From an uncultured Bacteroidales bacterium (GTDB lineage: Bacteria > Bacteroidota > Bacteroidia > Bacteroidales > Paludibacteraceae): a stretch of 63,625 nt of DNA. A model generated the notes under the pieces. It made no database searches. It was not told the DNA's origin and saw only the letters and a program-made list of their open reading frames with translations. A program made the translations under genes and the position numbers. The stretch's first letter is position 1. Every line of letters starts with the position of its first letter. Of the stretch, positions 4,163 to 61,539 are shown piece after piece. The stretch covers positions 16,018-79,642 of the forward strand of contig CADBZO010000003.1 in NCBI GenBank assembly GCA_902799185.1, read 5' to 3'.

Positions 4163-4960
4163 TCACGCGTGCGCGCGTTCGTATTTAAATATAGCCTCGC
4201 TCATGAGCCTTTTACCCTCTGCGATGATCTCTTCTGCGCGGTCGAAATCAAAGGTGTTGTAGGCGTACTGGCGCATCACAGCGTGGATGTCCGGCGGAGT
4301 GAGGCGGCATTCGAGAAGCGTGTTCTGCTGGATCTGGATGTCGTTCATGCGGTCGAGGATACCGACAAAACGTGCGCGCTCCATGGGCTTGGAGTCCTTG
4401 CCGCTGATATCCATGGCTGCCAGCAGGTCGCCTTTCTGCCGCTCTACGGCGTGCAGGGGCAGCGGGCTGACGATGCCGCCGTCGGTGAGCACGCGGTGGT
4501 CCATCCGTACGGGCTCGAAAAACAGCGGGATACTGATTGACGCACGCACGGCTTGGAAAAGGCTTCCGGTGCGGAAGACTACCTCTTCACTGGTACTCAT
4601 GTCCGTTGCGATGATGGTACAGGGGATATTCAGCTCCTCTATCGGCCTGTCCGGCACCACTTTCTCCAGCTCCTCGATGATCCGCTGGCCTTTGACCAGT
4701 GAGTTGCCGCTGAGCAAGTTGATATCCATCATTCTCAGAATGAGCTGTTTATCGACCTGCAGGAACCACTCTTTGGCTTCTTTGAGCTGTCCGGCGGCGT
4801 ACATGCCGGCGATGATTGAACCCATAGAGCAGCCGGCTATACTCGTGATGGTATAGCCGTGCTCCTCCAGAGCTTCTATGGCTCCGATGTGCGCGAGTCC
4901 TCTTGCGCCGCCGGAGCCGAGAACCAGCGCTACGTTTTTATTTTCTCTATCAACTATCAA
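4163..4960 (-). CDS. Patatin-like phospholipase
   Basis: A 265-residue patatin-fold lipid acyl hydrolase using a Ser-Asp dyad. The oxyanion-loop motif GSGGARGLAHIG is at about residues 15-26, the nucleophile elbow GCSMG near residue 43, and the catalytic Asp is in DGGIVSPLP near residue 160. It lacks an obvious signal peptide, so it is likely cytoplasmic or membrane-peripheral. No ATG precedes the first motif in this frame: the only usable start is a TTG inside a short tandem repeat, and an in-frame stop lies two codons upstream of it. Its neighbours TetR and acyl-CoA synthetase suggest release and reactivation of fatty acids from phospholipid. Confidence 0.87.
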   Translation of the reverse strand: MIVDRENKNVALVLGSGGARGLAHIGAIEALEEHGYTITSIAGCSMGSIIAGMYAAGQLKEAKEWFLQVDKQLILRMMDINLLSGNSLVKGQRIIEELEKVVPDRPIEELNIPCTIIATDMSTSEEVVFRTGSLFQAVRASISIPLFFEPVRMDHRVLTDGGIVSPLPLHAVERQKGDLLAAMDISGKDSKPMERARFVGILDRMNDIQIQQNTLLECRLTPPDIHAVMRQYAYNTFDFDRAEEIIAEGKRLMSEAIFKYERAHA

Positions 4961-4985
4961 CTCTCAACTATCAACTCTCAACTTT
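4948..4985. repeat. Short tandem repeat, family TTGATAGTTGA
   Basis: Degenerate repeats of AACTATC/AACTCTC fill the gap between the gcvT stop and the patatin coding region and contain the patatin TTG start codon. The same family occurs at 61509-61539. Confidence 0.8.
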
Positions 4986-6084
4986 AAACTATCCTCGCCG
5001 GTTGCAGTTTCTCGCGGATCTTGATATAGATGACGGTCTCTTTCTTGGCGAAAGGTGTCTGTACGTACCCCATGCCGATACCTACCTTGGTGTTCGGCAG
5101 CATGATACCCGAGGTCACGTGTCCGATTACGTTGCCCGCCTCGTCGCATATCTCATAGCCGTTGCGCGGGATAGCGCGCTCCAGACACTCGAAATGTACC
5201 AGTTTGCGTTTCACGCCCTCGGCTTTCTGCGCCTTGAGGTAGTCGCGGTCGATGAAGTCTTTGGCATCGAGCTTGGTAATCCATCCCAGACCGGCCTCCA
5301 GCGGAGAGGTGGTGTCGTCGATGTCATGGCCGTAGAGGCAGTACCATTTCTCCAGACGGAGGCTGTCGCGTGCGCCCAGACCTATCGGCGCGAGTCCGAA
5401 CGGCTTGCCTACTTCGAAGAGTGCGTCCCAAATCTGTTTGCCTTTCTCCGCCGGGAAATAGAGCTCGAATCCGCCGGCTCCGGTGTAGCCCGTATTGGAG
5501 AGAATAACGCCCGGAACGCCCGCAAAACTCCATTCGCGGAATGCATAGTAGTCGATGGACTTCAGGTCGGCGTCGGTCAGCAGTTGCAGCAGTTCCACGG
5601 CTTTGGGGCCCTGAACGGCTAACTGGCCGTAACGCTCGGAGGCGTTTTCAAGCTTGACATCCGCCCATTCGGGATTGGTACTTTGTACTTTGTCCCTTAG
5701 TACCTTGTTCACCCATTCCCAGTCTTTGTCGATATTGCCGGCATTGACGACCATGAGGTACTTCGTGGTGGAGTACTTGTAGATGATCAGGTCATCAACG
5801 ATACCGCCTTTGCCGTTCGGCATGCAGGTGTACTGCGCCTTGCCGGAGGCGATGACGGAGAGGTCGTTGGTGGTGATATACTGCAGGAAATCAAGCGCGT
5901 GCTCGCCTTTGACCCAGAACTCGCCCATGTGGCTCACGTCGAACACGCCTACGCCCTCGCGGACGATCATGTGCTCTTGGTTAATACCGGTAGGGTACTG
6001 GATAGGCATGTTAAACCCTGCGAACTCGGCCATCTTGGCGCCTAACGCAATGTGAATGTCTGTAAACGGTGTGGTTTTTAGCAT
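4984..6084 (-). CDS. gcvT: Glycine cleavage system aminomethyltransferase (T protein)
   Basis: A 366-residue T protein. It takes the aminomethyl group from lipoylated H protein and, with tetrahydrofolate, releases ammonia and methylene-THF. Family motifs include [13 protein letters not shown] near residue 50, [17 protein letters not shown] near 85, [16 protein letters not shown] near 190 and [18 protein letters not shown] near 235. The start ATG gives [12 protein letters not shown], typical of the family. Residues [10 protein letters not shown] (about 128-137) are encoded by a GTACAAAG-type repeat that seems to have been inserted in frame. glyA (serine hydroxymethyltransferase) is elsewhere in the window; the other glycine cleavage genes are not. 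Confidence 0.95.
5677..5706. repeat. Short tandem repeat, family GTACAAAG, in frame inside gcvT
   Basis: Units of GGTACTTTGT/ACTTTGTCCC encode [10 protein letters not shown] in GcvT. The same word family recurs in seven other places in this window, mostly inside genes. Confidence 0.7.
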
Positions 6085-8881: not shown

Positions 8882-8906
8882 TTGCTCCGTTAAAACCTTT
8901 GCGAGT

Positions 8907-8938
8907 GCAAAGTTACAACAAAAAATCGACATATGCAA
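8907..8938 (-). promoter_or_regulatory. Promoter of the 2-hydroxyacid dehydrogenase operon
   Basis: -7 box TAACTTTGC (8907-8915), 20-nt spacer, -33 TTG (8936-8938) in the context TTGCATATGTCGA. It probably drives dehydrogenase, lipoprotein, pepT, gcvT, patatin and tetR. Confidence 0.85.
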
Positions 8939-8947
8939 GTGCATATG
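8930..8947. promoter_or_regulatory. 18-bp palindrome over the -33 box
   Basis: CATATGCA-AG-TGCATATG is a perfect inverted repeat with the -33 TTG at positions 10-12 on the minus strand. Equivalent palindromes lie in the same register at 50490-50507 and 53254-53271. Confidence 0.6.
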
Positions 8948-9272: not shown

Positions 9273-9301
9273 CGTAATCTCTCAAAAAAATACCAGAACG
9301 C

Positions 9302-9333
9302 TTGCATATTTGCAATTTTTGTTGTAACTTTGC
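9302..9333 (+). promoter_or_regulatory. Promoter of the SpoIIE/alarmone operon
   Basis: -33 TTG (9302-9304, TTGCATATTTGCA), 20-nt spacer, -7 box TAACTTTGC (9325-9333). The nearest ATG is 40 nt downstream. The rest of the roughly 225 nt upstream gap holds only dispersed element copy A and no gene. Confidence 0.85.
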
Positions 9334-9372
9334 ACCCGCAATAAGATTGCATTGCCAAAAAGTGGAAAACGA

Positions 9373-11466
9373 ATGAAAAAACAATCGTCCAATATGTCAA
9401 AATCATCCAAAATGTCAATCCGGTCGAAGTCCGGGTTCTGGATACTGCTGGTAGCGGCTGCGCTGTTAGAGAGCATTGCGTGCATCCAGTATTTCACCAG
9501 CCGTGCGGCGATCCGGAGGGAGGCGTGTACCCGCGCCAGGACGGAGTTGCGCGCAGCGGAGCTGGAAATCAACGTGCACACTGCCGAGATGGAAGCGGCT
9601 GCGAAGATGTTAGCCGCTATGGCGGAATACCATATAGAAGAGCCGGAAATGATGTACGGCATGACGCGTATCCTGCTGAATACGCTGTCTAATGTAGAGA
9701 GCGCCGGTATCGCTTTTATCCCGGATTACTACCCCGAATGCGGTCATTGGTTTGAGGTGTGCAGCAGCCGTGCCGCGGATGCGCCGGGCGGTATATACAC
9801 CCGTCAGATAGGCGGACCGGAGCATGACTATTTCCGGGCGGAGTGGTTTCATAACGGTCTTAGTATCGACAGCGCGTGGTGGTGCGAGCCGTATCTCGAC
9901 GATGCGGGGGCGCAGACCATGGTAGTCAGTTGTTCGTATCCCGTACATAGCCGGGAGGGGAAGGTCGTTGCGGTGGTGTGCATCGACCTCTCGCTGAGCA
10001 AACTGACCAAGGTGTCCGAATACCTGCAGGTGTTCAAGGATAGTTATTATTCCATCCGTTCCTCCACGGGGGCCGACTTGGTACAACGGCCGGACACCAC
10101 GCCGGGGCGCAAGTACCTGACTTTCGACGAGGAGATAGACGCTACGGGGTGGCATATGTCGATCATCATTCCCGAAGATATTCTGTATGCCGATCTCAAG
10201 AAGTTAGGCATGTTGATTACGATACTGATGTTTTTGGGGTTGGCGCTGCTGGTGTTTATCATGTACCGCGCCGGTATGAATATGCAGCGTCTGATTACGG
10301 TCAATACCCAGAAAGAGCGCATGGAGAACGAGCTGGAGATCGCGCAGACCATCCAGAACGCCATGTTGCCGAAAGTCTTCCCGCCGTTCCTGGATTGCAA
10401 GGACCTCAATATATACGGTTCTGTCAAGCCGGCGAAGGAGATAGGCGGAGACCTGTATGATTTCTATATCCGCCATGAGAAGCTGTTCTTCTGTATCGGC
10501 GATGTGAGCGGCAAGGGCGTTCCGGCGGCGCTGATTATGGCGACGACCCGATCGCTGTTCCGTACGATCACCTCGCATGAGGAAGAAGCGGCGGCTATCA
10601 TGCGTCAGATCAACGACGCTATGTCGGAGAACAACGAGCAGAACATGTTCGTGACGCTCTTCCTGGGCGTGCTGGATCTGAATACGGGCGTGCTGGAATA
10701 CTGCAACGCCGGCCATAACGCGCCGGTGCTCCTGCCGAGCGACCGGTCGGTCAAAGAGGTGGAGGTGCTACCTAATCTGCCGTTAGGTGTGATGAGCGGT
10801 TTTACGTTCACCGCCCAGAAGACGAAGATGCAGCCGGACGACGTGCTGTTCCTCTATACCGACGGTCTGACGGAGGCGGAGAACATACGTCATGAGCTCT
10901 TCGGCGAGGAGCGGATGAACGGGGTGCTGGCTGCCGCCAAAGGTGAGGAGCTGGGGCCGCGTAATCTGGTGATGAAGATGCAGGAGGCGGTGACGGCTTA
11001 CGTAGGCGAGGCGCAGCAGAGCGACGACCTGACGATGCTCGCAGTCCGTTACCAACGCCCGGCAATCGTCATGCGCAACGATATCCAGCAGATACCGACT
11101 CTCTCCGAATGGATCGAGGGACTGGATATTCCGAAGGAGCTGAATATGCCGGTGAACCTGGCGCTGGAGGAGGCGGTGACGAACGTCATGCTGTACGCAT
11201 ACCCCGGTCAGCGGGACGGAAAAGTCTTTGTAGAGTACGCCGAGAACCACAACGAGCATGAGAAGACGCTCGTCTTCACTATCTCTGACTGCGGTGTGCC
11301 GTTCGACCCCACACAGGCACCGGAGGCGGATATATCCCTCTCCGCCGAGGAACGCGCCATAGGCGGTCTGGGCATCCACCTGGTACGCCAACTGATGGAC
11401 GAAATCCGGTACGAGCGGGTGGAGGAGAAGAATGTACTGACGCTGGTTAAGAGAATTGAAAGGTGA
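9373..11466 (+). CDS. Membrane sensor with SpoIIE-type PP2C phosphatase and HATPase domain
   Basis: About 697 residues. TM1 is near residues 20-41, followed by an extracytoplasmic Cache-like domain (AEWFHNGLSIDSAWW, then VVAVVCIDLSLSKL), TM2 near 277-300 and a coiled linker. A SpoIIE/RsbU PP2C phosphatase follows from about 345 to 540 (GGDLYDFY, GDVSGKGVPAALIM, YTDGLTEAEN). The C-terminus is a GHKL/RsbW-like ATPase (ALEEAVTNVMLYAYP, DCGVPFDP, GGLGIHLVRQL). It thus carries both the phosphatase and the anti-sigma-type kinase of a partner switch and should act on the STAS protein encoded next. I prefer the ATG at 9373; a TTG at 9352 is an in-frame alternative. Confidence 0.93.
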   Translation: MKKQSSNMSKSSKMSIRSKSGFWILLVAAALLESIACIQYFTSRAAIRREACTRARTELRAAELEINVHTAEMEAAAKMLAAMAEYHIEEPEMMYGMTRILLNTLSNVESAGIAFIPDYYPECGHWFEVCSSRAADAPGGIYTRQIGGPEHDYFRAEWFHNGLSIDSAWWCEPYLDDAGAQTMVVSCSYPVHSREGKVVAVVCIDLSLSKLTKVSEYLQVFKDSYYSIRSSTGADLVQRPDTTPGRKYLTFDEEIDATGWHMSIIIPEDILYADLKKLGMLITILMFLGLALLVFIMYRAGMNMQRLITVNTQKERMENELEIAQTIQNAMLPKVFPPFLDCKDLNIYGSVKPAKEIGGDLYDFYIRHEKLFFCIGDVSGKGVPAALIMATTRSLFRTITSHEEEAAAIMRQINDAMSENNEQNMFVTLFLGVLDLNTGVLEYCNAGHNAPVLLPSDRSVKEVEVLPNLPLGVMSGFTFTAQKTKMQPDDVLFLYTDGLTEAENIRHELFGEERMNGVLAAAKGEELGPRNLVMKMQEAVTAYVGEAQQSDDLTMLAVRYQRPAIVMRNDIQQIPTLSEWIEGLDIPKELNMPVNLALEEAVTNVMLYAYPGQRDGKVFVEYAENHNEHEKTLVFTISDCGVPFDPTQAPEADISLSAEERAIGGLGIHLVRQLMDEIRYERVEEKNVLTLVKRIER

Positions 11467-11499
11467 AAATTGAAAGGTGAAAGGAAAATTGAAAGGAAA
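11453..11499. repeat. Short tandem repeat, family GAAAGGTGAAAATT
   Basis: Degenerate GAAAGGTGAAAATT words span the end of the sensor gene and the gap before the STAS start. The family recurs at 23943-23971 and 37731-37765. Confidence 0.75.
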
Positions 11500-11505
11500 A
11501 AATAT

Positions 11506-11808
11506 ATGGAAACAACTATTCAAAAAAACGGCAACCAGGTGGTAGCGCTTTTCAAGGGCCGTCTGGACACCGCCGCCGCAGTCACAACCGCCGAGGAGGT
11601 GAAACCGCTCATGGAAGCGGCCAACAGCGAGATTATCCTCGATTGCAGCCAACTGGAGTACATCTCTTCGTCGGGTCTGCGTATCTTCCTCTCTATCCGT
11701 AAGGAAGCAGCGGCACACGGCTCGAAAGTGATTGTCCGGAATATCAGCGCCGACATCCGTCAGGTGTTCATGATGACCGGATTCATCAGCCTTTTTGAGA
11801 TACAGTAA
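11506..11808 (+). CDS. STAS-domain anti-sigma factor antagonist
   Basis: A 100-residue single STAS domain of the SpoIIAA/RsbV type. The phospho-site region LEYISSSGLRIFLSI (Ser about 54-56) is intact, so it can be phosphorylated by an RsbW-like kinase and dephosphorylated by SpoIIE. Both activities are present in the protein encoded just upstream. I start at the ATG at 11506 (METTIQKNG); the longer frame begins in repeat DNA. Its stop overlaps the next start by one base. No sigma factor is encoded in the window, so the final target may not be a sigma factor. Confidence 0.92.
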   Translation: METTIQKNGNQVVALFKGRLDTAAAVTTAEEVKPLMEAANSEIILDCSQLEYISSSGLRIFLSIRKEAAAHGSKVIVRNISADIRQVFMMTGFISLFEIQ

Positions 11809-12863
11809 TGGAAGGGTTGGATCTACACTGCCAAATGCTCGTGGAGGACTACCGCGAGGCGCAGCCGGTACTGGAGCGCATGAAGACGGAGGTCCTTGCG
11901 ATGTTACGTGAGGCGCTGGACCGCAACGGTTTGGTGGTGACGGCAGTCGAGGCGCGGGTGAAGACGGAAGAGAGCCTGGCGGGCAAGCTGGCGCTCAAGG
12001 GAGCCAAGTACGCCACGCTGAGCGACATCACCGACCTCGTAGGCGCACGAATCATCACGTTCTATACCGACGACGTGGACCGTATCGCTTCCATGGCGGA
12101 GCAGCTGTTCGACATCGACTGGCAGAACTCCGTGGACAAACGCAAGCTCCACCAACTGGACAGCTTCGGTTATAACTCGCTGCATTATATATGCCGCCTG
12201 CCGGGCTATGAGTACCGGTTCGAGCTGCAGCTCCGTACGACGCTCCAGCACGCCTGGGCGGCTATCAACCACGACACGGGTTACAAATCCGGCGTGGAGA
12301 TCCCGCGGGAGTATATCCGTCAGCTCAACCGCTTGGCGGGTATGCTGGAGATGGCGGACGACGAGTTCAGCCGTATCCGTACGGAGATCAACGACTACCG
12401 CCGGAGGGTGCAGCAGCTGGTGCAGAACGGCAAACTGGACGACGTGCTGCTGGACGGCGACACGTTCCGCTCCTATCTGCAGGCACGGCCGCTGGAGGCA
12501 CTCAACAAACGTATCGCCGCCATCAACCAGGCGGAGATACAGGAGGTGCCGCTCATCCGTTACCTGCGTGTCCTCAAAGCACTCGGCTGCGAGACCTTAG
12601 GCGACGTGAGCCGGCTCATCCGCAAATACGAGGATGACGCCTACCGTCTGGCGCGGCACCAGTTAGGCAACACCGACCTCGATATCATCTCTTCTGCCGT
12701 GGGACTGCAGAATATCTGTATCGTCTGCATCCTCTCCACCGGTGGCGGGAAGATAGGCCTGGAGCGCCTCTTCGACGCCCTCAACGGCCATAACAGCCAG
12801 AACGAAGCCCTCGCCGCTCTGACCTATGAACAAGCATCGAATTTACCTTTTATGAACAAATAG
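11808..12863 (+). CDS. RelA/SpoT-domain alarmone synthetase without an HD domain
   Basis: A 351-residue protein with a RelA/SpoT nucleotidyltransferase domain in the first ~190 residues and an unrecognised helical C-terminus. Synthetase motifs are present: SDITDLVGARI (catalytic Asp, about 72-82), FGYNSLHYI (about 119-127) and FELQLRTTLQHAW (Glu about 138). No HD hydrolase, TGS or ACT domain is present, so it resembles small alarmone synthetases or toxSAS enzymes and would make (p)ppGpp, (p)ppApp or modify another substrate. It overlaps the STAS gene by 1 nt and is 2 nt from the next gene. A separate full-length Rel is encoded at 48173-50413. Confidence 0.9.
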   Translation: MEGLDLHCQMLVEDYREAQPVLERMKTEVLAMLREALDRNGLVVTAVEARVKTEESLAGKLALKGAKYATLSDITDLVGARIITFYTDDVDRIASMAEQLFDIDWQNSVDKRKLHQLDSFGYNSLHYICRLPGYEYRFELQLRTTLQHAWAAINHDTGYKSGVEIPREYIRQLNRLAGMLEMADDEFSRIRTEINDYRRRVQQLVQNGKLDDVLLDGDTFRSYLQARPLEALNKRIAAINQAEIQEVPLIRYLRVLKALGCETLGDVSRLIRKYEDDAYRLARHQLGNTDLDIISSAVGLQNICIVCILSTGGGKIGLERLFDALNGHNSQNEALAALTYEQASNLPFMNK

Positions 12864-12865
12864 AT

Positions 12866-13705
12866 ATGAAACCCGTACTGATTGATTTGAACGACTATGT
12901 GCGCACCGGCGAAGGAGCCAACGGCGCCAGTTATAACCATAAGACCGACCCCAATATCATGCTCAAACTCTATTTCCGCAATTTCGAGGCGGCGGAGAAA
13001 GAGCTGGTGTTGGCGCAGAAGGTCTATGCCATGGGCATCCCGACACCCGAACCCGGCGACCTCGTCACCGACGGCAAGCAGACAGGTATCCGTTTTCGCC
13101 GCATAGAAGGCAAGAAATCCTATTCCCGTGCCTGCGGCGACAACCCGGAGAAGACCGAAGAGTACGCGCAGGAGTTCGCGCGGCTGTGCAAGCAGCTGCA
13201 CGCCACCCACGTGGACACCACTCAGTTTGAGAACGTAAAAGACCGTTTCTACGCAATGCTGGACGCCAACCCGGATTTCACTCCGGAGCAGAAAGAGAAG
13301 ATCCGTGCGTTCATCGCTGCGGCTCCGGACGCCGATACGGCGCTGCACGGAGACCTGCAGTTCGGCAACGGTATCTTCGTGGAGAAAGACGGAGAGCGCA
13401 AGCAGTATTTCATCGACCTGGGCGATTTCAGTTACGGCTATTACATGTTCGACTTAGGAATGGTGTATCTCTGCTGCTGCCTCAATAACGAAGAGTGGAC
13501 GCAGGAGGTCAACCATATGTCCAATGCCACCGCCCGCCGTTTCTGGGACGCTTTCGCCCGCGAGTATTTCGGCCCGGAGGCGGATCTGGAGCAGGTGGAG
13601 AAAGAGGTGCGTGTGTATGCCGGTATCAAGACTCTGATGGTAGAGCGTGACACCCATTGCCCTATGCCGCAGTTCCGTGCTATGCTGGAGGGAACGGTGT
13701 ATTAG
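12866..13705 (+). CDS. APH-fold phosphotransferase (TIGR02172-like)
   Basis: A 279-residue protein of the aminoglycoside-phosphotransferase/choline-kinase fold. The catalytic loop ALHGDLQFGNGIF (His-Gly-Asp, about residue 160) and the metal-binding FIDLGDFSYGYYMFDLG (about 175-190) are intact. The N-terminus has a P-loop-like GEGANGASYNH. Its resemblance is to a family of unknown substrate known from Fibrobacter and Clostridia (my recognition), not to antibiotic-resistance enzymes. Tight spacing to the synthetase gene suggests it phosphorylates something in the same pathway; the substrate is unknown. Confidence 0.82.
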   Translation: MKPVLIDLNDYVRTGEGANGASYNHKTDPNIMLKLYFRNFEAAEKELVLAQKVYAMGIPTPEPGDLVTDGKQTGIRFRRIEGKKSYSRACGDNPEKTEEYAQEFARLCKQLHATHVDTTQFENVKDRFYAMLDANPDFTPEQKEKIRAFIAAAPDADTALHGDLQFGNGIFVEKDGERKQYFIDLGDFSYGYYMFDLGMVYLCCCLNNEEWTQEVNHMSNATARRFWDAFAREYFGPEADLEQVEKEVRVYAGIKTLMVERDTHCPMPQFRAMLEGTVY

Positions 13706-13762
13706 GAGATTTGAGATTTGACATTTGAGATTTGACATTTGAGATTTGACATTTGATATTTG
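13706..13762. repeat. Short tandem repeat, family GACATTTGAGATTT
   Basis: Four degenerate GAGATTTGACATTT units (period 14) fill the gap between the APH-fold gene and the HD gene and end at the ATG. Confidence 0.85.
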
Positions 13763-14353
13763 ATGGCGAATAAATATTTAGACACAGACTTGCTGGACCG
13801 CGCGATTATCTTTGCGGTCAAAGCGCACCATGACACGGAGCGCCGCGGCAAGGGTTTTCCGTATATCGTCCATCCCATGGAGGCGGTGGAAATCGTAGCA
13901 ACTATCACGTCCGACCAGGAGCTGCTGGCGGCTGCGGCGCTGCACGACACGATAGAGGACACCGACGTCACGGTCGAGGAACTGCGTGAGGCGTTCGGCG
14001 AACGTGTAGCCGCGCTGGTACATGCCGAGAGCGACCGTTTCACCGAAGGCGTCTCCGAGGAGGACAGCTGGCACGACCGCAAGCAGGCGGCGATAGACCG
14101 TCTGGCGGCGGCTTCCCATGACGCGAAGATAGTAGCGATGGGTGACAAACTGAGCAACATGCGCGCTATCTGGCGCGACTACCAGACGAAAGGCGATGCG
14201 CTCTGGTCGATCTTCCATGTGAAGGACAAAGCCTCGCACGAGTGGCATTACCGCGGCCTCGCCGTCTCCCTCGCGGAGCTGGGCGACACCTTTGCCTACC
14301 GCGAGTTCGTGCGGCTCATTGACGAAGTATTCGGGAAGGGACAAAGAGACTAA
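13763..14353 (+). CDS. HD-domain small alarmone hydrolase-like protein (SpoT/MESH1 type)
   Basis: A 196-residue single HD domain. The metal and substrate motifs match the Rel/MESH1 hydrolase class: KGFPYIVHPMEA (about 31-42), ALHDTIEDTDV (HDxxED, about 59-69) and AKIVAMGDKLSNM (Asp and Asn, about 120-132). There is no synthetase domain. I start at the ATG at 13763, right after the repeat. In the same operon as a synthetase, it could reset alarmone levels or neutralise a toxic synthetase, as known for HD-type antitoxins of toxSAS pairs. That role is an inference; generic phosphohydrolase activity is the alternative. Confidence 0.88.
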   Translation: MANKYLDTDLLDRAIIFAVKAHHDTERRGKGFPYIVHPMEAVEIVATITSDQELLAAAALHDTIEDTDVTVEELREAFGERVAALVHAESDRFTEGVSEEDSWHDRKQAAIDRLAAASHDAKIVAMGDKLSNMRAIWRDYQTKGDALWSIFHVKDKASHEWHYRGLAVSLAELGDTFAYREFVRLIDEVFGKGQRD

Positions 14354-14379
14354 GTACCAAGTGACCAAGTACCAAGGAG
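14341..14379. repeat. Short tandem repeat, family GTACCAAG
   Basis: AAGTACCAAGTGACCAAGTA-type words cover the end of the HD gene and the gap before the phosphatase ATG. Confidence 0.7.
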
Positions 14380-14381
14380 TA

Positions 14382-15185
14382 ATGTACGTACAATTCGATA
14401 ATATCGTTAACGCACGCGATTTAGGCGGGTTAGCAGGAGCCGGCGGCAAGACCGTCCGTCCGCACCGGTTGCTGCGTACGGCGCATCTGCACGACGCCTC
14501 GCCGGAAGATCTGGCGCGGCTGCGTAACGAGTACAGGCTGGCGAAGATCTTCGATTTCCGTTCCCTGGGAGAAGCGGCTGCGTTGCCCGACCGGGAGGTG
14601 GAAGGCGCCACTCATCATCTGCTGCCGACCATTGATCTCTCGGCGGAGAAACTGACGGAACAGCCTATCCCGCAGGAGGCGTTTCTGGACCTGGAAAGAC
14701 ATATTGTCAATTACTCGTTCTATCCCGAAGTGCAGGCTATGGCGCGGAATATGTACCCTTCGCTTATCCGGAGCGAGTATTCACAGCTCCAATACGCAGC
14801 ATTCCTCAGGCTTATCGTGGAAGCTCCCGAAGACGGCGGCATCCTCTGGCATTGCTTCCAGGGAAAGGACCGGACGGGGTGGGGCGCTGCCTATCTGCTC
14901 TCCGCCTTAGGGGTGTCGCGTGAAGATATCATCGCAGATTTCGACCTCTCCAACACCGCGTACCGCGAGCTGGTCAACAGCCTCTACGCCGAGATAGAAG
15001 CGCGTGGTGGAGGCGAGGCGGAGAAGGAAGTGGTGCTGGCGTTCATGGGTGTCTCTACGCCTAATTTCATCCGTACGCTCGACCTAATCGACCGTGAGTT
15101 CGGCGGAATGATGAGTTACCTCAACGAACAGCTTCTCCTCTCCCGCGAGGATATACAATTGTTGCGCAAGCGATTTTTGCAATAA
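14382..15185 (+). CDS. Tyrosine/serine protein phosphatase (Cys-based, PF13350-like)
   Basis: A 267-residue dual-specificity-like phosphatase. The N-terminal NARDLGGL and KTVRPHRLLRTAHL motifs are typical of the Y_phosphatase3 group, and the active-site loop HCFQGKDRTG (Cys-x5-Arg, about residues 156-162) is intact. I start at the ATG at 14382 (MYVQFDNIV), after the repeat; the longer frame overlaps the HD gene. No signal peptide is seen, so it is cytoplasmic. As part of the operon it may act on phosphoproteins, phosphoinositides or small phosphorylated metabolites made by the APH-fold kinase; none of these is shown. Confidence 0.9.
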   Translation: MYVQFDNIVNARDLGGLAGAGGKTVRPHRLLRTAHLHDASPEDLARLRNEYRLAKIFDFRSLGEAAALPDREVEGATHHLLPTIDLSAEKLTEQPIPQEAFLDLERHIVNYSFYPEVQAMARNMYPSLIRSEYSQLQYAAFLRLIVEAPEDGGILWHCFQGKDRTGWGAAYLLSALGVSREDIIADFDLSNTAYRELVNSLYAEIEARGGGEAEKEVVLAFMGVSTPNFIRTLDLIDREFGGMMSYLNEQLLLSREDIQLLRKRFLQ

Positions 15186-15217
15186 ACCCATAAACTTATA
15201 AACCCATAAACTTATTA
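15185..15217. repeat. Short tandem repeat, family AACCCATAAACTTAT
   Basis: Two full copies of AAACCCATAAACTTAT plus a partial fill the gap between the phosphatase and YtxH genes. Confidence 0.75.
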
Positions 15218-15222
15218 ACTCA

Positions 15223-15444
15223 ATGAAAGATCTGATCAAGACCACGATTGTTTTTGCCGCCGGCGCTGCCGTAGGTGCCGCTGTCGCGATGCTCCTCACC
15301 CCGAAGACCGGCGAGGAGGTACGTAATCGGCTCCACGACCTTGCCGAGGACGCTAAGAAACGCGCGCAGGACTACTGCGAGCAAGTGAAGAAAGAGATCG
15401 AGGAAGCGCAAGCTCCCGCTGAACCTGCAACCGAGGAGGCATAA
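15223..15444 (+). CDS. YtxH-like small envelope protein
   Basis: A 73-residue YtxH-type protein: one N-terminal membrane segment rich in Gly and Ala (FAAGAAVGAAVAMLL), the family motif TPKTGEEVRNRL, then a charged coiled-coil tail. YtxH proteins are linked to general stress responses in Firmicutes through the sigma-B partner switch (established knowledge), which fits the SpoIIE/STAS genes upstream. The gene is 1 nt from the next one. Confidence 0.85.
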   Translation: MKDLIKTTIVFAAGAAVGAAVAMLLTPKTGEEVRNRLHDLAEDAKKRAQDYCEQVKKEIEEAQAPAEPATEEA

Positions 15445-15445
15445 G

Positions 15446-15937
15446 ATGGAAAACGAAGTATTCGAACAACTCAAATCCGACGTCACCGCCTGCGGTGAGT
15501 CGTTCGGCAAGGTAGGCCAGCTGCGCCTCATCGGTATCGTGAGCCGTGTGTTAGGTCTGTTCCTGATGATCTTCACGGTCGTTCTGCTGGTCTTTGCTCT
15601 GTTGGCTTTCGGATCGGTAGCGGCTATTGACGCCCTCTCGGCCGTGATGCCTGTCTGGGCGGCGGCGCTGATCATGGGGAGTTTGTATGTGCTCCTGATA
15701 GCGGTAGCCGTAGTGTGCCGCAAGCCGCTGTTCGTACATCCGTTCATCCGTTTGATGAGCAAGGAGATTAACACGGAGGAAGAGTTGGCGCTCAAGACCA
15801 TGGAAGCGGAGCACAAAGCGGAGATACAGTATATCCGTTTGGAGACGAAGGTGGAGAACGCCACCCGCGAGCTGAGCCTCTATGCCTCCCTCGCTTCCCG
15901 TATATGGTCATGGATAACCGGTAAAATAGGCAAGTAA
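15446..15937 (+). CDS. Holin-X-like (phage holin superfamily) membrane protein
   Basis: A 163-residue protein with two adjacent membrane helices (about residues 34-60 and 68-92) and amphipathic flanks. This layout matches the chromosomal 'phage holin family'/Holin-X proteins that sit beside YtxH genes in many bacteria. No lysis genes or phage genes are nearby, so a lysis role is unlikely; it is probably an envelope-stress membrane protein. The start ATG follows the YtxH stop directly and its stop touches the next ATG. Confidence 0.75.
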   Translation: MENEVFEQLKSDVTACGESFGKVGQLRLIGIVSRVLGLFLMIFTVVLLVFALLAFGSVAAIDALSAVMPVWAAALIMGSLYVLLIAVAVVCRKPLFVHPFIRLMSKEINTEEELALKTMEAEHKAEIQYIRLETKVENATRELSLYASLASRIWSWITGKIGK

Positions 15938-16993
15938 ATGTTTTCCCGTCTATACGGCGTGTTACTGCCGTTCTTCGTCAGCTTTCTGCTGGCGTATATT
16001 CTGGATCCCGTAGTGGGCTTCGTGCAGACCAAATGCCGCGTGCGTAACCGCGCACTGGCGGTGATGGTGACGCTTGTGCTGGCCGTGGGGATTGTCGTAG
16101 GTGCCGTAGCCGCGCTCCGCAAACCCGTTACCGAGCAGGTCAATGCCGCCTGGGCGGGCTTCCAGAGTTACGTAGCGGCATTCGATATTAACGACTATGT
16201 CTCGGCTCAGACCCAGGAGAAACTGCTCAAATGGCAGTCCGAATGGGATTGGCACTCGGTGCTTGCCAACCCGGAGCTGTCCAACTCCCTCAAGGAGCTG
16301 GTACCGAAGATAGGTAACTGGATTACCGGCGGGCTGAGTTGGATGAGCGAGCTGATGGTAGTCTTCATCGGACTGATGTACCTCATCTTCCTGATGATTG
16401 ATTTCCCGAATATCCGTGCCGGTTACAGCAAGTTCATACCCCGGAAGATCCGTCCGCAGGTAGTGACGCTCATGGGTGATATAGATCGGAACATGAACGC
16501 CTATTTCCGCGGCCAGGCTACGGTAGCGACGTGCGTAGGAATCCTCTTTGCAATCGGCTTCACTATCACGGGTCTGCCAATGGGTATCGCCATGGGACTG
16601 ATCATCGGTCTGCTGAATATGGTGCCGTACATGCAGGCATTAGGTATTCCGCCCTGTATCGTCCTCTGCCTCATCCAGTCTGCCCAGACAGGCCAGCCGG
16701 TGTGGCTCACGCTCCTGATGATGGCGGCTGTGTTCGTGGTGGTGCAGTCGATCCAGGATCTCGTTCTGACGCCTAAGATCATGGGAGACGTGACAGGCAT
16801 GGGCCCCGCGGCAATACTCCTCAGCCTCAGTATCTGGGGCGCGCTCTGCGGCGTGATAGGAATGATTATCGCCCTGCCGGTGACGACGCTGATTATCAGT
16901 TATTATGAGCGTTATGTAGCTAACCGCGGCGTAGCCAGCCGCGCTCATCAGGCGCATTATAAAGGCAGGCTCCGCAACAACTACCGTCTGTAA
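15938..16993 (+). CDS. AI-2E family transporter (PF01594-like permease)
   Basis: A 351-residue polytopic inner-membrane protein of the AI-2E/YdiK/PerM class: an N-terminal helix pair (LLPFFVSFLLAYILDPVVGF), a helix-rich cytoplasmic middle part, and the conserved block VTGLPMGIAMGLIIGLLNMVPYMQ, then LSIWGALCGVIGMIIALPVT. Members include Na+/H+ antiporters and the name-giving autoinducer exporter; the substrate here is unknown. It is the last gene of the operon and is followed by a strong terminator. Confidence 0.9.
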   Translation: MFSRLYGVLLPFFVSFLLAYILDPVVGFVQTKCRVRNRALAVMVTLVLAVGIVVGAVAALRKPVTEQVNAAWAGFQSYVAAFDINDYVSAQTQEKLLKWQSEWDWHSVLANPELSNSLKELVPKIGNWITGGLSWMSELMVVFIGLMYLIFLMIDFPNIRAGYSKFIPRKIRPQVVTLMGDIDRNMNAYFRGQATVATCVGILFAIGFTITGLPMGIAMGLIIGLLNMVPYMQALGIPPCIVLCLIQSAQTGQPVWLTLLMMAAVFVVVQSIQDLVLTPKIMGDVTGMGPAAILLSLSIWGALCGVIGMIIALPVTTLIISYYERYVANRGVASRAHQAHYKGRLRNNYRL

Positions 16994-17011
16994 CCCGGAC
17001 CCCAAGGGCAT

Positions 17012-17046
17012 AAAAAAATCTCGCTATAAAGCAGCGAGATTTTTTT
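17012..17046. terminator. Bidirectional terminator
   Basis: An ATCTCGCT/AGCGAGAT stem with a 7-nt loop is flanked by A and T runs. It serves the AI-2E operon and the converging acyl-CoA synthetase, whose stop codon lies in the stem. Confidence 0.9.
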
Positions 17047-18949
17047 CGTTCATGAGTTCCTTGCCTTCCGGCGTGTAGGCGTAGTCGATACGGTCTCGGA
17101 AGTAGGTCTCCACCTTTCCGCGTACGACCTTCATCGTGGAGTTGACCAGGTGGTTCTGTTCCGTCCATGGCTCGTCCAGTACCGCTATAGCGGCAGGCAG
17201 CCAGGCTTCGGGGAAGATACCGTCCCGGCTTCCGCCCGGACGATAGGAGTCCACCTCGCTCTGGATCTTGAGGAGCATGCACTCCTTGCCCTCGCGGGTA
17301 GCGGGGTCTTTGCCCTGACTCTTTGTCCACGCCTGCAGCGCCTCTTTGTTCGGCACCATGAGGAGAATCGTATAAGGGTCCTGGTTGTTATGCAGGATAC
17401 ACTGATCGACATATACACTGCCGTCCGTCAGCGAGTCCTCGAAGCCCTCCGGGCTGTATTTCTCGCCGTCGGCGCGGATGAGCAGCGATTTGAACCGTCC
17501 TACTACCCACAGGTAGCCCGGGTGCTCTTGGGTCACATAGCCCATGTCGCCCGTGTGGAGCCATCCGTCGATGACGGTGGCTGCGGTGCTCTCGGGGTTC
17601 TTCCAGTAACCTGCCATCACGTTCTCTCCCTTGATGACTATCTCGCCGCGCTCGCCGTCCGGCACAATATTACCTTCTGAGTCGCAAATCTTCAGTTCCA
17701 TCGGCGTGACGATGCGTCCGGACGACCCGAAGATAGCTCCGTCGGGGGAGTTGGAGCAGATGATAGGCGTAGCCTCGCTCAGTCCGTAGCCCTGGAACAT
17801 CGGCATCCCTACCGCACAGAAATAGCGTTGCAACGCAATGTCGAGCAGTGCGCCGCCGCCGACGAAGAACTTCATCCGTCCGCCGAAGTTCTCCCGTACG
17901 GCTTTGAAGATGAGGCGGTCAAAGAGCTTCACCAGCGGCCATCGCCATGCATTGCGCCATCCGCCCCGGTTCCAGTACTCGCGGTTATAGGCGATGGCGT
18001 TGTTGAGGGCGAAGTTATAGAGTTTCTCCACTTTCGGCCCTTTGGCATGGATGGCGGTCTCGATGCTCTTGCGGAAATTACGCGCCAGCGCCGGTACGGA
18101 GAGCATCACATGGGGGCGCACCTCTTTGATGGCTACAGGGATGTTTTTGAGCGTTGCCATCGCCGTCTTGCCTACCGGCACGGTAGCTATGGAGCCTCCG
18201 TAACTCATCATTGTATAGAAGCCCGCTACGTGCGCAAAACAGTGGTCCAGCGGCAAAATGATGAGCATGACGTCATCTATATCGCAATGGATAACCGAAC
18301 TGCCCTGCTCCACGTTCGCCGTGTAGTTGCGGTGGGTGAGGAGAATACCTTTCGGGTCAGCCGTAGTACCGGAGGTGTAGCTGATATTGGCATAGTCGTC
18401 GGGTCCGACGGAGGAATAACGGGCTTGGAAGGAAGCCGGGTCTTTGGCCAGCAACTCGTCGCCCAGCCGGATCACCTCGTCGATGTGAATCTCTTTCTCC
18501 TCATAACTCTCCAGCGGGTCGAAGACAATCACTCTCTCCACCAGCGGGCAGTCGGCAATGATCTTGCGGATCTTCGGCAGCTGCTGGCCGGAGCACATGA
18601 CAAACCGTGCGTCGGAGTGCCGGATACGGAAGAGCAGATCGCTTGCTTCCTCCAGCTTGATACTCAGCGGTACGTTCACGCCTCCGGCGTAGAGGATACC
18701 TAACTCCCCCGTGACCCAGAGGTTGCGTCCCTGGCTGAGGAGTGCCACGCGCTCGCCTTTCTGCAACCCCAGCGCCATCATGCCGGCACCGATGCGGTGG
18801 GCTATCTCCCGCGTCTCGCGGAAAGAGGTTGTTTCCCATTTATCGTTAATCTTCTCGCGCAGGAATACATGCTCGCTGTAACGGCGCGTGTAGTGCTCCA
18901 CGAAATCAATAATCGTAGGTCTCTCTTTGGTCATCTTTTCCATATTCAT
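17024..18949 (-). CDS. Long-chain acyl-CoA synthetase, large type (FAA1/TIGR-like)
   Basis: About 641 residues, longer than the two ligases at the window start and of a different subfamily. The adenylation P-loop is YTSGTTADPKGILLTH near residue 190, with GYGLSEATPII, HTGDMGYV and the C-terminal catalytic-Lys region NSTMKVVRGKVE. It lacks a signal peptide. The start is MNMEKMTKERP at 18949, only about 14 nt after the -7 box; 18943 is an alternative ATG. Expected to activate long-chain fatty acids for membrane-lipid recycling. Confidence 0.9.
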   Translation of the reverse strand: MNMEKMTKERPTIIDFVEHYTRRYSEHVFLREKINDKWETTSFRETREIAHRIGAGMMALGLQKGERVALLSQGRNLWVTGELGILYAGGVNVPLSIKLEEASDLLFRIRHSDARFVMCSGQQLPKIRKIIADCPLVERVIVFDPLESYEEKEIHIDEVIRLGDELLAKDPASFQARYSSVGPDDYANISYTSGTTADPKGILLTHRNYTANVEQGSSVIHCDIDDVMLIILPLDHCFAHVAGFYTMMSYGGSIATVPVGKTAMATLKNIPVAIKEVRPHVMLSVPALARNFRKSIETAIHAKGPKVEKLYNFALNNAIAYNREYWNRGGWRNAWRWPLVKLFDRLIFKAVRENFGGRMKFFVGGGALLDIALQRYFCAVGMPMFQGYGLSEATPIICSNSPDGAIFGSSGRIVTPMELKICDSEGNIVPDGERGEIVIKGENVMAGYWKNPESTAATVIDGWLHTGDMGYVTQEHPGYLWVVGRFKSLLIRADGEKYSPEGFEDSLTDGSVYVDQCILHNNQDPYTILLMVPNKEALQAWTKSQGKDPATREGKECMLLKIQSEVDSYRPGGSRDGIFPEAWLPAAIAVLDEPWTEQNHLVNSTMKVVRGKVETYFRDRIDYAYTPEGKELMNEKNLAAL

Positions 18950-25176: not shown

Positions 25177-25182
25177 ATCTGC

Positions 25183-25244
25183 TTTTGTCTTTTGTCTTTT
25201 GTCTTTTGTCTTTTGTCTTTTGTCTTTTGTCTTTCTTCTCTTGT
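25183..25244. repeat. Short tandem repeat, family TTTTGTC (period 7)
   Basis: About eight near-perfect TTTTGTC heptamers fill the gap between the TonB receptor stop and the DUF4876 start. Confidence 0.9.
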
Positions 25245-27806
25245 CTATATATTCAGATTTATCTCCATTCCGAAATAAGGGCTTGAGGTGCGGTGGATGG
25301 TTACCATTCCTCCGTTGGTGCCGCTCACTTGATAATCCGGCAGTATATCCAGTAATCGGTTGACATACAAGGCAATAGAGGCAAACCGTGTGATGCTCTT
25401 TTGTACTCGCAGGTTCAGGTATCCCTCAAACGGCACCGTGCGGCGGATGAATTGACCGGTGTTGTAATCAAAGATAAGGGTCTTGAGTATCGCGTCTTCC
25501 GCCTCCGCGTTGCCGTACGGGTGGAGTTTTCCGTCCCCCGATGATATATATGCTACCGGTCTCCCGTTCTTCTCCATGGTTTTCGAGGCGGTGTAAAAAG
25601 TAGTCTCTAATGTGGCACTCACCGTCAGGCCAATCTTTTGTATATACACATCCGCCACGAGGTTGGAACTCAGACTCTCGCGGATATACCCCTCCGTCCA
25701 GTCGTAGAGACCGATATAATGGTCGGTCACATTCACGCCGTCGATGATGCCGGGGCTTTTCTCTGTGGAGAACATCTGCTCACTGTTGCTATAGACCGTT
25801 CTGAGCCAGGCTCCGTTGAGTGTGAACCGCGTGCAGATAGCCGGGATTCGCGGGCTCTGGTATTGCCACTCCACGCCGCGTTTGTAAACACGGCTGCCGT
25901 TGGCTGTCGAGGAGTAGGGTAGCAGCCGGTTGTACGTGCTTTCGCTGATAGTATAACGGAAAGGCTCCACTTGCATCATACCGCGGAACGCGTTCTGCAT
26001 GTCTTCTTCGAAATAGGTGACGCTCAGACGGTGTCTTTGTATGTCCAGCCCTGCCCGCACTTCCCATTTGAGGTTGCGTGCCGGCTGTAGGGCGTAGTTG
26101 GTCGGATTGACGATGTGGGTGTATATCTGCATGGTCTCGTCTGCCGGAGCGATGGGCTTGTCGGGTGCCTGCAAGTCCATATAGAGCAGGTTGGGCGACA
26201 GTTGCAGCAGGGTAGGCATCTTGGTGTGCTGCCCGACCGCTGCGGCTATATAGACCTTGCCTTTGGCAAACGGGAAATTGACGGTCAGGTTCGCCCTCGG
26301 GTCGAGATAGCACTTGCCGCTGACGGCATACGCACTCCCCAGCCCCAGCAGCGATGTGCCTCGCAGACCGATGTTGAGGTCAAGGCTTACGTGCTCGTGT
26401 ACGGGAAAGGTAATGTCGTCCTGGATATACCATGCCAGTTGGTTGGTGGCAGGGATGTCGTAGTACGCCCGCGGACGCAGTTGCGACGAGTAGTTGAGCG
26501 GACGGCTGAGGTCATAGACCTGTCCGCGACCGAAATTCTTCGCGTATCGCCACTCAATGCCGATATTCGCTTTGTGGTCCAGCCGCCAGGTGGAGAAATA
26601 GAACTCCGCTTTGGGACGCACGAACACGTTGAGCGGAAGACCCTCTACCGTGTGCTGCGCCGTGTACTTATAGGGCAGGAACGCTACGGTGGCTTCGCCC
26701 TCCTGCATATTATCGATAGCCGGGTTCTTAGGCGTAGTCAACTGGACAAAACGCGTCTGGTCAATGCGGTCAATCTCGCCCGAAAGGTTCGCCTGTACGC
26801 TCAGCCTCCAGTCGAAGTAGGTCTTTTGACTTTCTACTCTTGACTTTGGACTAAAGACCACCGTGTTGTTCCAGCTCAGTTTATGGTACTGGCTGCGGTA
26901 GCTGTCCTCGCGGTTGTTATGGATGTCGGGGTCTATCTTCTCGTTGTCCATGCTGCCGGTGTAGTCGAGATGGCTCTGCCAGCGGATACGGTAGTCCTCT
27001 GCCTGCCATTTCTGCTGCAGGCGCACGGAGCCTGTGATACGCTGGTAGTTCTCCAGCGTGTTCGTCGGGTCGGCTTTGGCGTTCAGGTAGTCCAGTCCGA
27101 AATTGAGTACCGTCTGTTCGTTGTTCCATCCGATACCTTTGCCGAAGAACAGCAGTTTGCTGAACCCGTCGGCTTTGAAGCGGGCACGCCACGGAGTGGG
27201 CTTGCTGGTGCGCTCGATACGCACTACGCCGGATGTTACATCGCCGTACTCGGCTCCCGCTATACCGCGGATGATCTCTACTTTCTCAATGTCGTCCGTC
27301 GAGATGGTACGCATATCTACGCCCGCGCCCACGCTGTTGCGTTTGGCGTCCGCGCCACTCACGTCCGACTGTACGTATTGCATGTTGGCGTCTGTGCTCA
27401 CCGGCGCGCCGTCAATTACAAACGACGTGCCTAACGACGAGGCGTCGTAGTCGCCGCTACCGGCGCCGTTCGTCGCCTCGCGCAGACGGATGGTGTTGGC
27501 GTTGGTCAGGTTCGGGTCCTTGGTCGTACCGCCCGGCAGGGTTTGCAGAATATCTGTGAATGAGGAGGGCTGCAAGTGCTGCATAGCCTCTTTGCCGATG
27601 ACCGACGCACTGCTTTGGGCGGTCTGTTCCTGCGCCGTCACCACCACTTCCTGCAACGTGAACATCCGCTCGACACTGTCCAACATGGCTTGTTGTGTGC
27701 TGTTCCACCGCATCGAATCCGGGGAAGATAATGGCAACGCAACCGTGCCGGGAACCGGTACAGTCAATAACAGACTTATGAAAAAGCTTCTTATTTTCAA
27801 TGACAC
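25245..27806 (-). CDS. TonB-dependent receptor (DUF4876/DUF6850 locus)
   Basis: About 853 residues: signal peptide (IRSFFISLLLTVPVPGTVALP), plug domain from VVVTAQEQTAQSSASVIGKE (about 50-170, including IEKVEIIRGIAGAEYGDVTSG), then a 22-strand-type barrel ending in YFGMEINLNI. It lacks the CarboxypepD_reg domain of SusC-type receptors. The promoter is at 27820-27851, so the upstream ATG-like frame cannot be used; I place the start at the GTG at 27806, with the TTG at 27800 as an alternative. Residues near SRVESQKTYFDW come from a GTCTTTTGAC-type repeat. Ligand unknown. Confidence 0.88.
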   Translation of the reverse strand: MSLKIRSFFISLLLTVPVPGTVALPLSSPDSMRWNSTQQAMLDSVERMFTLQEVVVTAQEQTAQSSASVIGKEAMQHLQPSSFTDILQTLPGGTTKDPNLTNANTIRLREATNGAGSGDYDASSLGTSFVIDGAPVSTDANMQYVQSDVSGADAKRNSVGAGVDMRTISTDDIEKVEIIRGIAGAEYGDVTSGVVRIERTSKPTPWRARFKADGFSKLLFFGKGIGWNNEQTVLNFGLDYLNAKADPTNTLENYQRITGSVRLQQKWQAEDYRIRWQSHLDYTGSMDNEKIDPDIHNNREDSYRSQYHKLSWNNTVVFSPKSRVESQKTYFDWRLSVQANLSGEIDRIDQTRFVQLTTPKNPAIDNMQEGEATVAFLPYKYTAQHTVEGLPLNVFVRPKAEFYFSTWRLDHKANIGIEWRYAKNFGRGQVYDLSRPLNYSSQLRPRAYYDIPATNQLAWYIQDDITFPVHEHVSLDLNIGLRGTSLLGLGSAYAVSGKCYLDPRANLTVNFPFAKGKVYIAAAVGQHTKMPTLLQLSPNLLYMDLQAPDKPIAPADETMQIYTHIVNPTNYALQPARNLKWEVRAGLDIQRHRLSVTYFEEDMQNAFRGMMQVEPFRYTISESTYNRLLPYSSTANGSRVYKRGVEWQYQSPRIPAICTRFTLNGAWLRTVYSNSEQMFSTEKSPGIIDGVNVTDHYIGLYDWTEGYIRESLSSNLVADVYIQKIGLTVSATLETTFYTASKTMEKNGRPVAYISSGDGKLHPYGNAEAEDAILKTLIFDYNTGQFIRRTVPFEGYLNLRVQKSITRFASIALYVNRLLDILPDYQVSGTNGGMVTIHRTSSPYFGMEINLNI
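26821..26858. repeat. Short tandem repeat in frame in a TonB receptor loop
   Basis: GTCTTTTGACTTTCTACTCT-type words encode PKSRVESQKT, in a predicted loop between barrel strands. Confidence 0.6.
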
Positions 27807-61508: not shown

Positions 61509-61539
61509 AAGTTGATAGTTGACAGTTGATAGTTGATAG
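61509..61539. repeat. Short tandem repeat, family TTGATAGTTGA
   Basis: AGTTGATAGTTGACAGTTGA-type units exactly fill the gap between the dnaX stop and the ygiQ ATG; same family as 4948-4985. Confidence 0.85.

Follow-up and report, generated by a model that had tools for sequence, protein, structure and literature searches.

We analysed a 63,625-nucleotide (nt) stretch of the genome of an uncultured Bacteroidales bacterium of the Paludibacteraceae (contig CADBZO010000003.1; the whole stretch is called the window here), in which a membrane sensor, a STAS protein and a RelA/SpoT-type alarmone synthetase are encoded side by side. An ORF (open reading frame) scan of the window found nine ORFs on the same strand at 9352-16993, where the original prediction, made from the letters, had placed a nine-gene operon. 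Family profiles agreed with the families it had named: SpoIIE, HATPase_c_2 and PDC sensor in the first gene, then STAS, RelA_SpoT, APH, HD_4, Y_phosphatase3, YtxH and AI-2E, with a holin-X match under the Pfam cut-off (21.4 versus 28.4 bits). Probable starts are the ATG codons at 9373, 11506, 11808, 12866, 13763 and 14379, the first of them inside an ORF that opens at a TTG at 9352. Using these starts, the intergenic gaps are, in order, 39, -1, 2, 57, 25, 37, 1 and 0 nt. The host genome is 2.43 Mb and 86.7% complete.

The first gene (9373..11466, plus strand) is predicted from family profiles to encode a membrane sensor that joins a periplasmic PDC domain to a SpoIIE/PPM phosphatase and a C-terminal RsbW/SpoIIAB-type HATPase. 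Profile matches to SpoIIE and HATPase_c_2 bear out the combination of phosphatase and RsbW-like kinase proposed earlier, and the metal-site and ATP-site residues of the two domains are conserved in relatives. The STAS protein (11506..11808, plus strand; family profiles) carries an S-S-S-G phospho-motif within the sequence YISSSG. S67 (ORF numbering) is serine or threonine in all of 107 rows apart from six gapped rows and the mis-extracted L145. Because four rows (L212-214 and L216) have glutamine at S68 yet retain S67, S67 appears to be the better candidate phosphorylation site.

The third gene (11808..12863, plus strand) encodes a RelA/SpoT-type synthetase, here called SYN, as judged from family profiles, alignments and fold comparison. 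With a RelA_SpoT domain, no HD domain and its catalytic residues kept, it falls by sequence into the small alarmone synthetase (SAS) class. Its catalytic domain (residues ~1-204) resembles RelQ and RelP, the nearest proteins by sequence and by fold, with CapRel ranking lower, and is followed by a helical C-terminal domain (~205-351). Across 111 aligned rows (the window plus 110 loci, some genomes being represented twice), R50, K52, K60, D76, R81, Y122, E139, Q141, H155 and K160 are invariant (111/111); the ATP- and acceptor-binding residues were mapped from the profile alignment and the available part of PMC11782079. RelP and RelQ share the catalytic fold and residues, but SYN differs from both in its added C-terminal domain of ~147 amino acids (aa), which has no PDB match, and in its fixed linkage to the switch. 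Modelled alone, this domain is all-helical (predicted local distance difference test, pLDDT, 87; predicted template-modelling score, pTM, 0.86). A fold search of the PDB returned nothing at E 0.001 (best E 2.5), and Pfam gave no tetratricopeptide repeat (TPR) match in SYN. The full-length model has a pLDDT of 83.7 and a pTM of 0.58, which leaves the position of the C-terminal domain relative to the catalytic domain uncertain. Weak TALE-repeat matches at residues 291-341 were taken as chance; they are absent from the profile search.

Downstream of SYN lie genes for an APH-type phosphotransferase (12866..13705, plus strand), which exceeds the NCBIfam cut-off of TIGR02172 (234.7 versus 228.2 bits), a stand-alone HD protein of small alarmone hydrolase (SAH) type (13763..14353, plus strand), and a Y_phosphatase3-type phosphatase with an HC(F/A)QGKDRT loop (14379..15185, plus strand; family profile and alignment). 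The nearest solved chains to the HD protein, which was assigned by these and by family profiles, are the small alarmone hydrolases 7qoc and 7qoe, and its metal ligands and ED motif (H38, H62-D63, E66-D67 and D129) are conserved in 104/104 rows. The catalytic motifs had been described as intact, and they are so in the window, with little or no variation among relatives; SYN and the HD protein thus look capable of alarmone synthesis and hydrolysis, respectively.

To survey relatives, the SYN alignment was searched against 84,980 species genomes. Relatives are encoded in 309 stretches, of which we retained the best 80. These are Bacteroidales loci picked by SYN and are close relatives (73-94% SYN identity). 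The closest is a rumen Bacteroidales metagenome-assembled genome (MAG; locus L097, 94%), and the remainder are MAGs of uncultured Bacteroidales, Paludibacteraceae or Bacteroidaceae. Among the 80, STAS is present in 78, SpoIIE, APH and HD in 75 each and the phosphatase in 67; STAS lies immediately upstream of SYN in 77, and all six genes occur in window order in 59, so the gene order is not unique to this genome. The first six genes are a conserved unit, linked beyond chance. The last three (15223..16993, plus strand; family profiles) had been counted in the operon, and this part of the claim did not stand: YtxH is present in 2/80 loci, a holin-like gene in 2/80 and AI-2E in 1/80. Because the trio follows the operon together in a single locus (L097), we treat these genes as downstream neighbours outside the system.

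Several of the incomplete loci are cut off by the end of their contig (L097, L106, L142, L144 and L175 among them). Others are true variants: L150 and L174 keep STAS-SYN without SpoIIE, L149 has SpoIIE-STAS-SYN without APH, HD or phosphatase, L129 has no APH, and in L101 the HD gene was not found by tblastn. In L049/L050 the order is HD-SpoIIE-SYN-cytidylate-kinase-like-STAS. This cytidylate-kinase-like gene (PF13189) is present in 15/110 loci at varied operon positions (for example L105:4984-5535 and L050:8506-9138), its distance in L131 being 3.3 kb upstream.

We then considered the distribution of SYN in a sample of 200 genomes from the family, 35 of them from the genus. SYN (50% identity or higher) is present in 24/200 genomes (own included), 20 of which belong to the 35 of the genus. 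The corresponding 24 neighbourhoods (the window, L034-L050 and L089-L094) contain STAS in 24, SpoIIE in 23, HD in 23, APH in 21 and the phosphatase in 20. An operon-type HD protein (E below 1e-75) was found in 23/24 SYN genomes versus 0/176 SYN-free genomes of the family, and a strong APH (E below 1e-59) in 22/24 versus 0/176, both counts being uncorrected for kinship. HD matches in the 176 SYN-free genomes reach 2.2e-19 at best and are mostly long Rel/SpoT proteins; the one SYN genome outside the HD count, G109, has a diverged HD gene at its SYN locus. In G045 and G109 a cytidylate-kinase-like gene replaces APH, in G158 APH is on a separate contig, and G009 has its HD, cytidylate-kinase-like and phosphatase genes grouped on a separate contig. 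As for STAS, each of the 24 SYN genomes has a match, and so do 17 genomes of the family sample without SYN, counts likewise uncorrected for kinship.

In a sample of the order, SYN was found at E below 1e-150 in 9/393 genomes, 7 of them outside the family and from four families. The switch is present, rearranged, in 5/7 of these (three in family f135, one in f133 and one in f57), and the switch-linked SYN of these three other families has 51-57% SYN identity. The kinase is a separate ORF in f135 (137 aa) and f133 (133 aa), and the order in f57 is SYN-HD-APH-SpoIIE-STAS. The proposed linkage of switch, SYN and HD therefore extends to four family-level lineages (the home family f1, f135, f133 and f57). 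Across 395 genomes sampled from the phylum, other SYN matches are weaker (best 1e-44), and tblastn detected no switch gene in 12 neighbourhoods of such distant SAS relatives (E-values weaker than 1e-50; L077-L088); tblastn of the window proteins found none in L051-L053 either. Because the weaker-matching SAS of the phylum sample show no switch, the switch-linked SYN is, as far as seen in these Bacteroidota samples and 14 named control genomes, a feature of the Bacteroidales. At L219:8145-10739, an SAS-like domain (~30% identity) opens an 864-aa ORF, after a weak HD_4 match below cut-off.

The cluster, which many gut bacteria of one lineage retain, places a sensor-driven switch beside putative enzymes for making and destroying ppGpp, an arrangement which suggests that a signal from outside the cell could set ppGpp directly. 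The parts, their intact motifs, the conserved linkage and the co-occurrence can be read from the sequences; from these we infer that STAS docks on SYN and controls it directly, and we put at about one in two the chance that a partner switch free of a sigma factor gates a dedicated small alarmone synthetase. Following this logic, the periplasmic PDC domain would sense a signal and shift the balance between the sensor's phosphatase and kinase, and this balance would set the phosphorylation of the S-S-S-G motif in STAS. In one of the resulting states STAS would then dock on SYN, most likely on the added C-terminal domain, and change the rate at which SYN transfers pyrophosphate from ATP to GDP or GTP. 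By analogy with SiaC, the unphosphorylated form would be the activator. The co-encoded HD enzyme would remove the product, so that the output may be pulsed or reset, and APH, the optional cytidylate-kinase-like protein and the phosphatase may be accessory enzymes or second outputs.

Consistent with a partnership of STAS and SYN, their adjacency is fixed and is retained where other genes are lost (L150, L174 and L149), and the linkage of switch and SYN survives rearrangement (f135, f133, f57 and L049/L050). The switch had also been predicted to be complete without a sigma factor. A PF01740 search of the genome found no other stand-alone STAS, the second match being a SulP-like transporter. A HATPase_c_2 search gave one strong match (the operon's), one histidine kinase and one weak match in a 223-aa ORF. 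No sigma factor is present among the nine genes or the blast-annotated neighbours of the operon. A second STAS subtype (B), found in 12 loci, forms one clade and requires 1 change on the trees of STAS and of both SpoIIE catalytic domains, 2 on that of the SYN catalytic domain, 3 on the SYN C-terminal domain, 4 on the sensor domain, 5 on APH, 7 on HD and 6 on the phosphatase (trees that left out L163, L166 and L172). By this measure SYN follows the switch more closely than do the other enzymes. Columns that track the switch subtype number 9/185 in SYN and 0/155 in APH (L163 included), a comparison confounded by adjacency; because the SYN tree itself nearly follows the subtype, this covariation is not independent of adjacency and was dropped as separate evidence.

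Several observations weigh against control of SYN by the switch. The subtype order of the genes could be explained by gene adjacency or map distance alone, and in L143 the switch is of type A but SYN is B-like. In a mirror-tree comparison of whole proteins over 50 rows, STAS and SpoIIE correlate at r 0.45, STAS and SYN at 0.19, STAS and the phosphatase at 0.20, and STAS with APH and with HD at 0.02 each; coevolution of STAS with SYN was thus not apparent. L170 is a true variant, with SYN-APH-HD-phosphatase and the switch gone, and both genomes of family f155 (L215 and L217) have SYN-HD without the switch. The incompleteness of the host genome and the weak 223-aa HATPase ORF count on the same side, as do similar switches that stand beside genes resembling nonribosomal peptide synthetase (NRPS) genes or beside transporters, and two fusions of STAS to APH. 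In L215 and L217, the SYN-HD pair is flanked by an apparent amino-acid ATP-binding cassette (ABC) transporter and a cupin, perhaps another input module.

The STAS-APH fusions point to the main rival, in which the target of STAS is the APH kinase, or the switch itself is modified by APH, with SYN-HD forming a parallel output of the same operon. Because STAS and APH are fused in two genomes that lack SYN, APH is possibly a direct partner of STAS. One fusion (L235:6744-7937, 397 aa, by Pfam, TIGR02172-like) adjoins SpoIIE/HATPase and STAS genes whose products (55% and 61%, respectively) are the closest to those of the operon among the SYN-free genomes examined; the other (L285:3379-4617, 412-424 aa) was recognized by blastp and TIGR02172 and has no SpoIIE nearby, a point against this rival. 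In its favour, a strong APH never occurs without SYN within the 200 family genomes, and in f155 APH and the switch are both absent. However, SpoIIE-STAS-SYN occurs without a nearby APH in L149, L129 and L038, and with a cytidylate-kinase-like gene instead in L049/L050; the sole APH of G158 is on a different contig, L170 has APH and no switch, the STAS-APH distance correlation is near zero, and none of the variable APH columns track the subtype, a contrast with SYN that adjacency confounds. We regard control of APH as a serious though unlikely alternative, a little under half as probable as gating of SYN.

A second rival, which we hold to be improbable, is that SYN is a toxic SAS acting by tRNA pyrophosphorylation or through ppApp, with the HD protein as antitoxin and the switch arming growth arrest or defence. 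The SYN-HD pair does resemble faRel-aTfaRel as described in the available part of PMC11782079, the PADLOC model PDC-S33 matches residues 29-152 (4.6e-14), and the presence of SYN is patchy even within the genus. Against this, SYN is closest, in sequence as in fold, to the (p)ppGpp synthetases RelQ and RelP, with CapRel ranking lower, SYN is conserved over many species together with a signalling front end, and the HD protein has no PADLOC match. Nor was any relative found among the viral contigs scanned, on which ground a viral origin was also rejected. Least probable, by a little, is that the switch targets an anti-sigma factor or other protein outside the operon and SYN-HD is merely co-transcribed: the targets of canonical STAS/RsbW pairs are sigma factors, homologous switches in these genomes have varied neighbours and the host genome, with its weak HATPase ORF, is incomplete, but its only stand-alone STAS found is the operon's and the SYN linkage is kept through rearrangement in four families.

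Gating of SYN by a phosphoprotein would have parallels in cyclic di-GMP (c-di-GMP) signalling. In SiaABCD of P. aeruginosa, as proposed here, one operon encodes a second-messenger synthase together with the membrane PP2C phosphatase, kinase and small phosphoprotein that gate it, SiaC acting on the diguanylate cyclase SiaD (PMC7278518; available part of PMC8457831), and SiaA is the nearest NCBIfam phosphatase name for the sensor, although far below cut-off (49.8 versus 700 bits). However, SiaC is a DUF1987 protein phosphorylated on threonine and not a STAS protein, SiaD is a GGDEF diguanylate cyclase and not a RelA_SpoT enzyme, the kinase SiaB is separate, and no hydrolase gene is reported in PMC7278518 or the available part of PMC8457831, which also names BgrV-BgrR with such systems. 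In HsbR-HsbA-HsbD of P. aeruginosa, one kinase/phosphatase protein sets a STAS phosphoprotein that binds and gates a diguanylate cyclase, but HsbR is a response regulator without a membrane sensor, HsbA also binds the anti-sigma factor FlgM and the product is c-di-GMP (available part of PMC5085249). Phosphatase, kinase and STAS with intact motifs are shared with SpoIIAA/SpoIIAB/SpoIIE and RsbV/RsbW/RsbU, from which the operon differs in that it has no sigma factor gene and its kinase is fused to the phosphatase and sensor.

Among alarmone enzymes, Tde-SAS/Tde-SAH of T. denticola (DsRel, ActSpo2) likewise combine an SAS whose C-terminal helical domain brakes catalysis with a genomically encoded SAH, but that domain is a TPR, the locus tags are far apart (TDE1711 and TDE1690) and the available part of PMC10434055 mentions neither STAS nor SpoIIE. 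Among the titles and abstract openings listed by a literature search, with preprints and closed-access papers beyond its reach, none describes a STAS/SpoIIE switch with an alarmone synthetase, and the text of PMC8256260 mentions neither ppGpp nor alarmone. Two things we judge to be new: that such a switch is combined with a synthetase and a hydrolase of alarmone type, and the C-terminal domain that SYN carries. With slightly less confidence than in the gating itself, this may be the first partner-switch-gated alarmone system, running from a Cache-type sensor through STAS to a new helical SYN domain, with its own hydrolase and a plug-in switch reused elsewhere in the lineage with peptide synthetases and transporters. 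If so, extracellular signals would have a direct route to the messenger of the stringent response that bypasses the ribosome, STAS partner switching would reach alarmones, beyond sigma factors and c-di-GMP, and an alarmone synthetase would have acquired a new regulatory domain.

Similar switches also occur beside other genes. We inspected 20 neighbourhoods, each around another STAS gene or a split locus, with most ORFs annotated only by blast against the window proteins. Six of them (L238, L242, L244, L245, L246 and L252) have SpoIIE/HATPase-STAS pairs adjoining very large AMP-binding ORFs. By Pfam, the large ORF of L245 is an NRPS with condensation domains and a terminal reductase-type domain. 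Other SpoIIE-STAS neighbours are CitMHS-type transporters, an ABC transporter and an acyltransferase; no sigma factor was seen among the neighbours annotated in this way.

The original prediction also held that a promoter and a terminator flank the genes, and candidates for both were found. A promoter-like element, TTGTTGTAACTTTGCA, lies at 9319..9334 on the plus strand and, at two or fewer mismatches, has 8 copies in the window versus 0.04 expected, with an exact copy on the minus strand at 8906-8921. It agrees with the Bacteroidota promoter element, TAnnTTTG. In a sigma-70 promoter scan, which is ill-suited to this phylum, sites were no commoner than in shuffles. A hairpin terminator is predicted between convergent genes at ~17012..17047 (-19.5 kcal/mol, z -5.0).

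The gaps are tiny or repeat-filled, as had been noted: in a repeat scan, every operon gap of at least 25 nt overlaps a short tandem array, and a 7/14-nt array (13706..13763) occupies the spacer between APH and HD. Repeat filling was nevertheless rejected as a special feature of the operon, other spacers of the window being filled in this way too; tandem arrays cover 705/5135 non-coding bases of the window versus 643/58490 coding bases. Short arrays (7-16 nt) fill many spacers, including 4947-4993, 13706-13763, 25182-25246 and 61510-61539. The divergent promoter regions at 8899-8939 and 9301-9341 form a 41-nt inverted repeat (88%) whose arms enclose a 33-nt tandem array.

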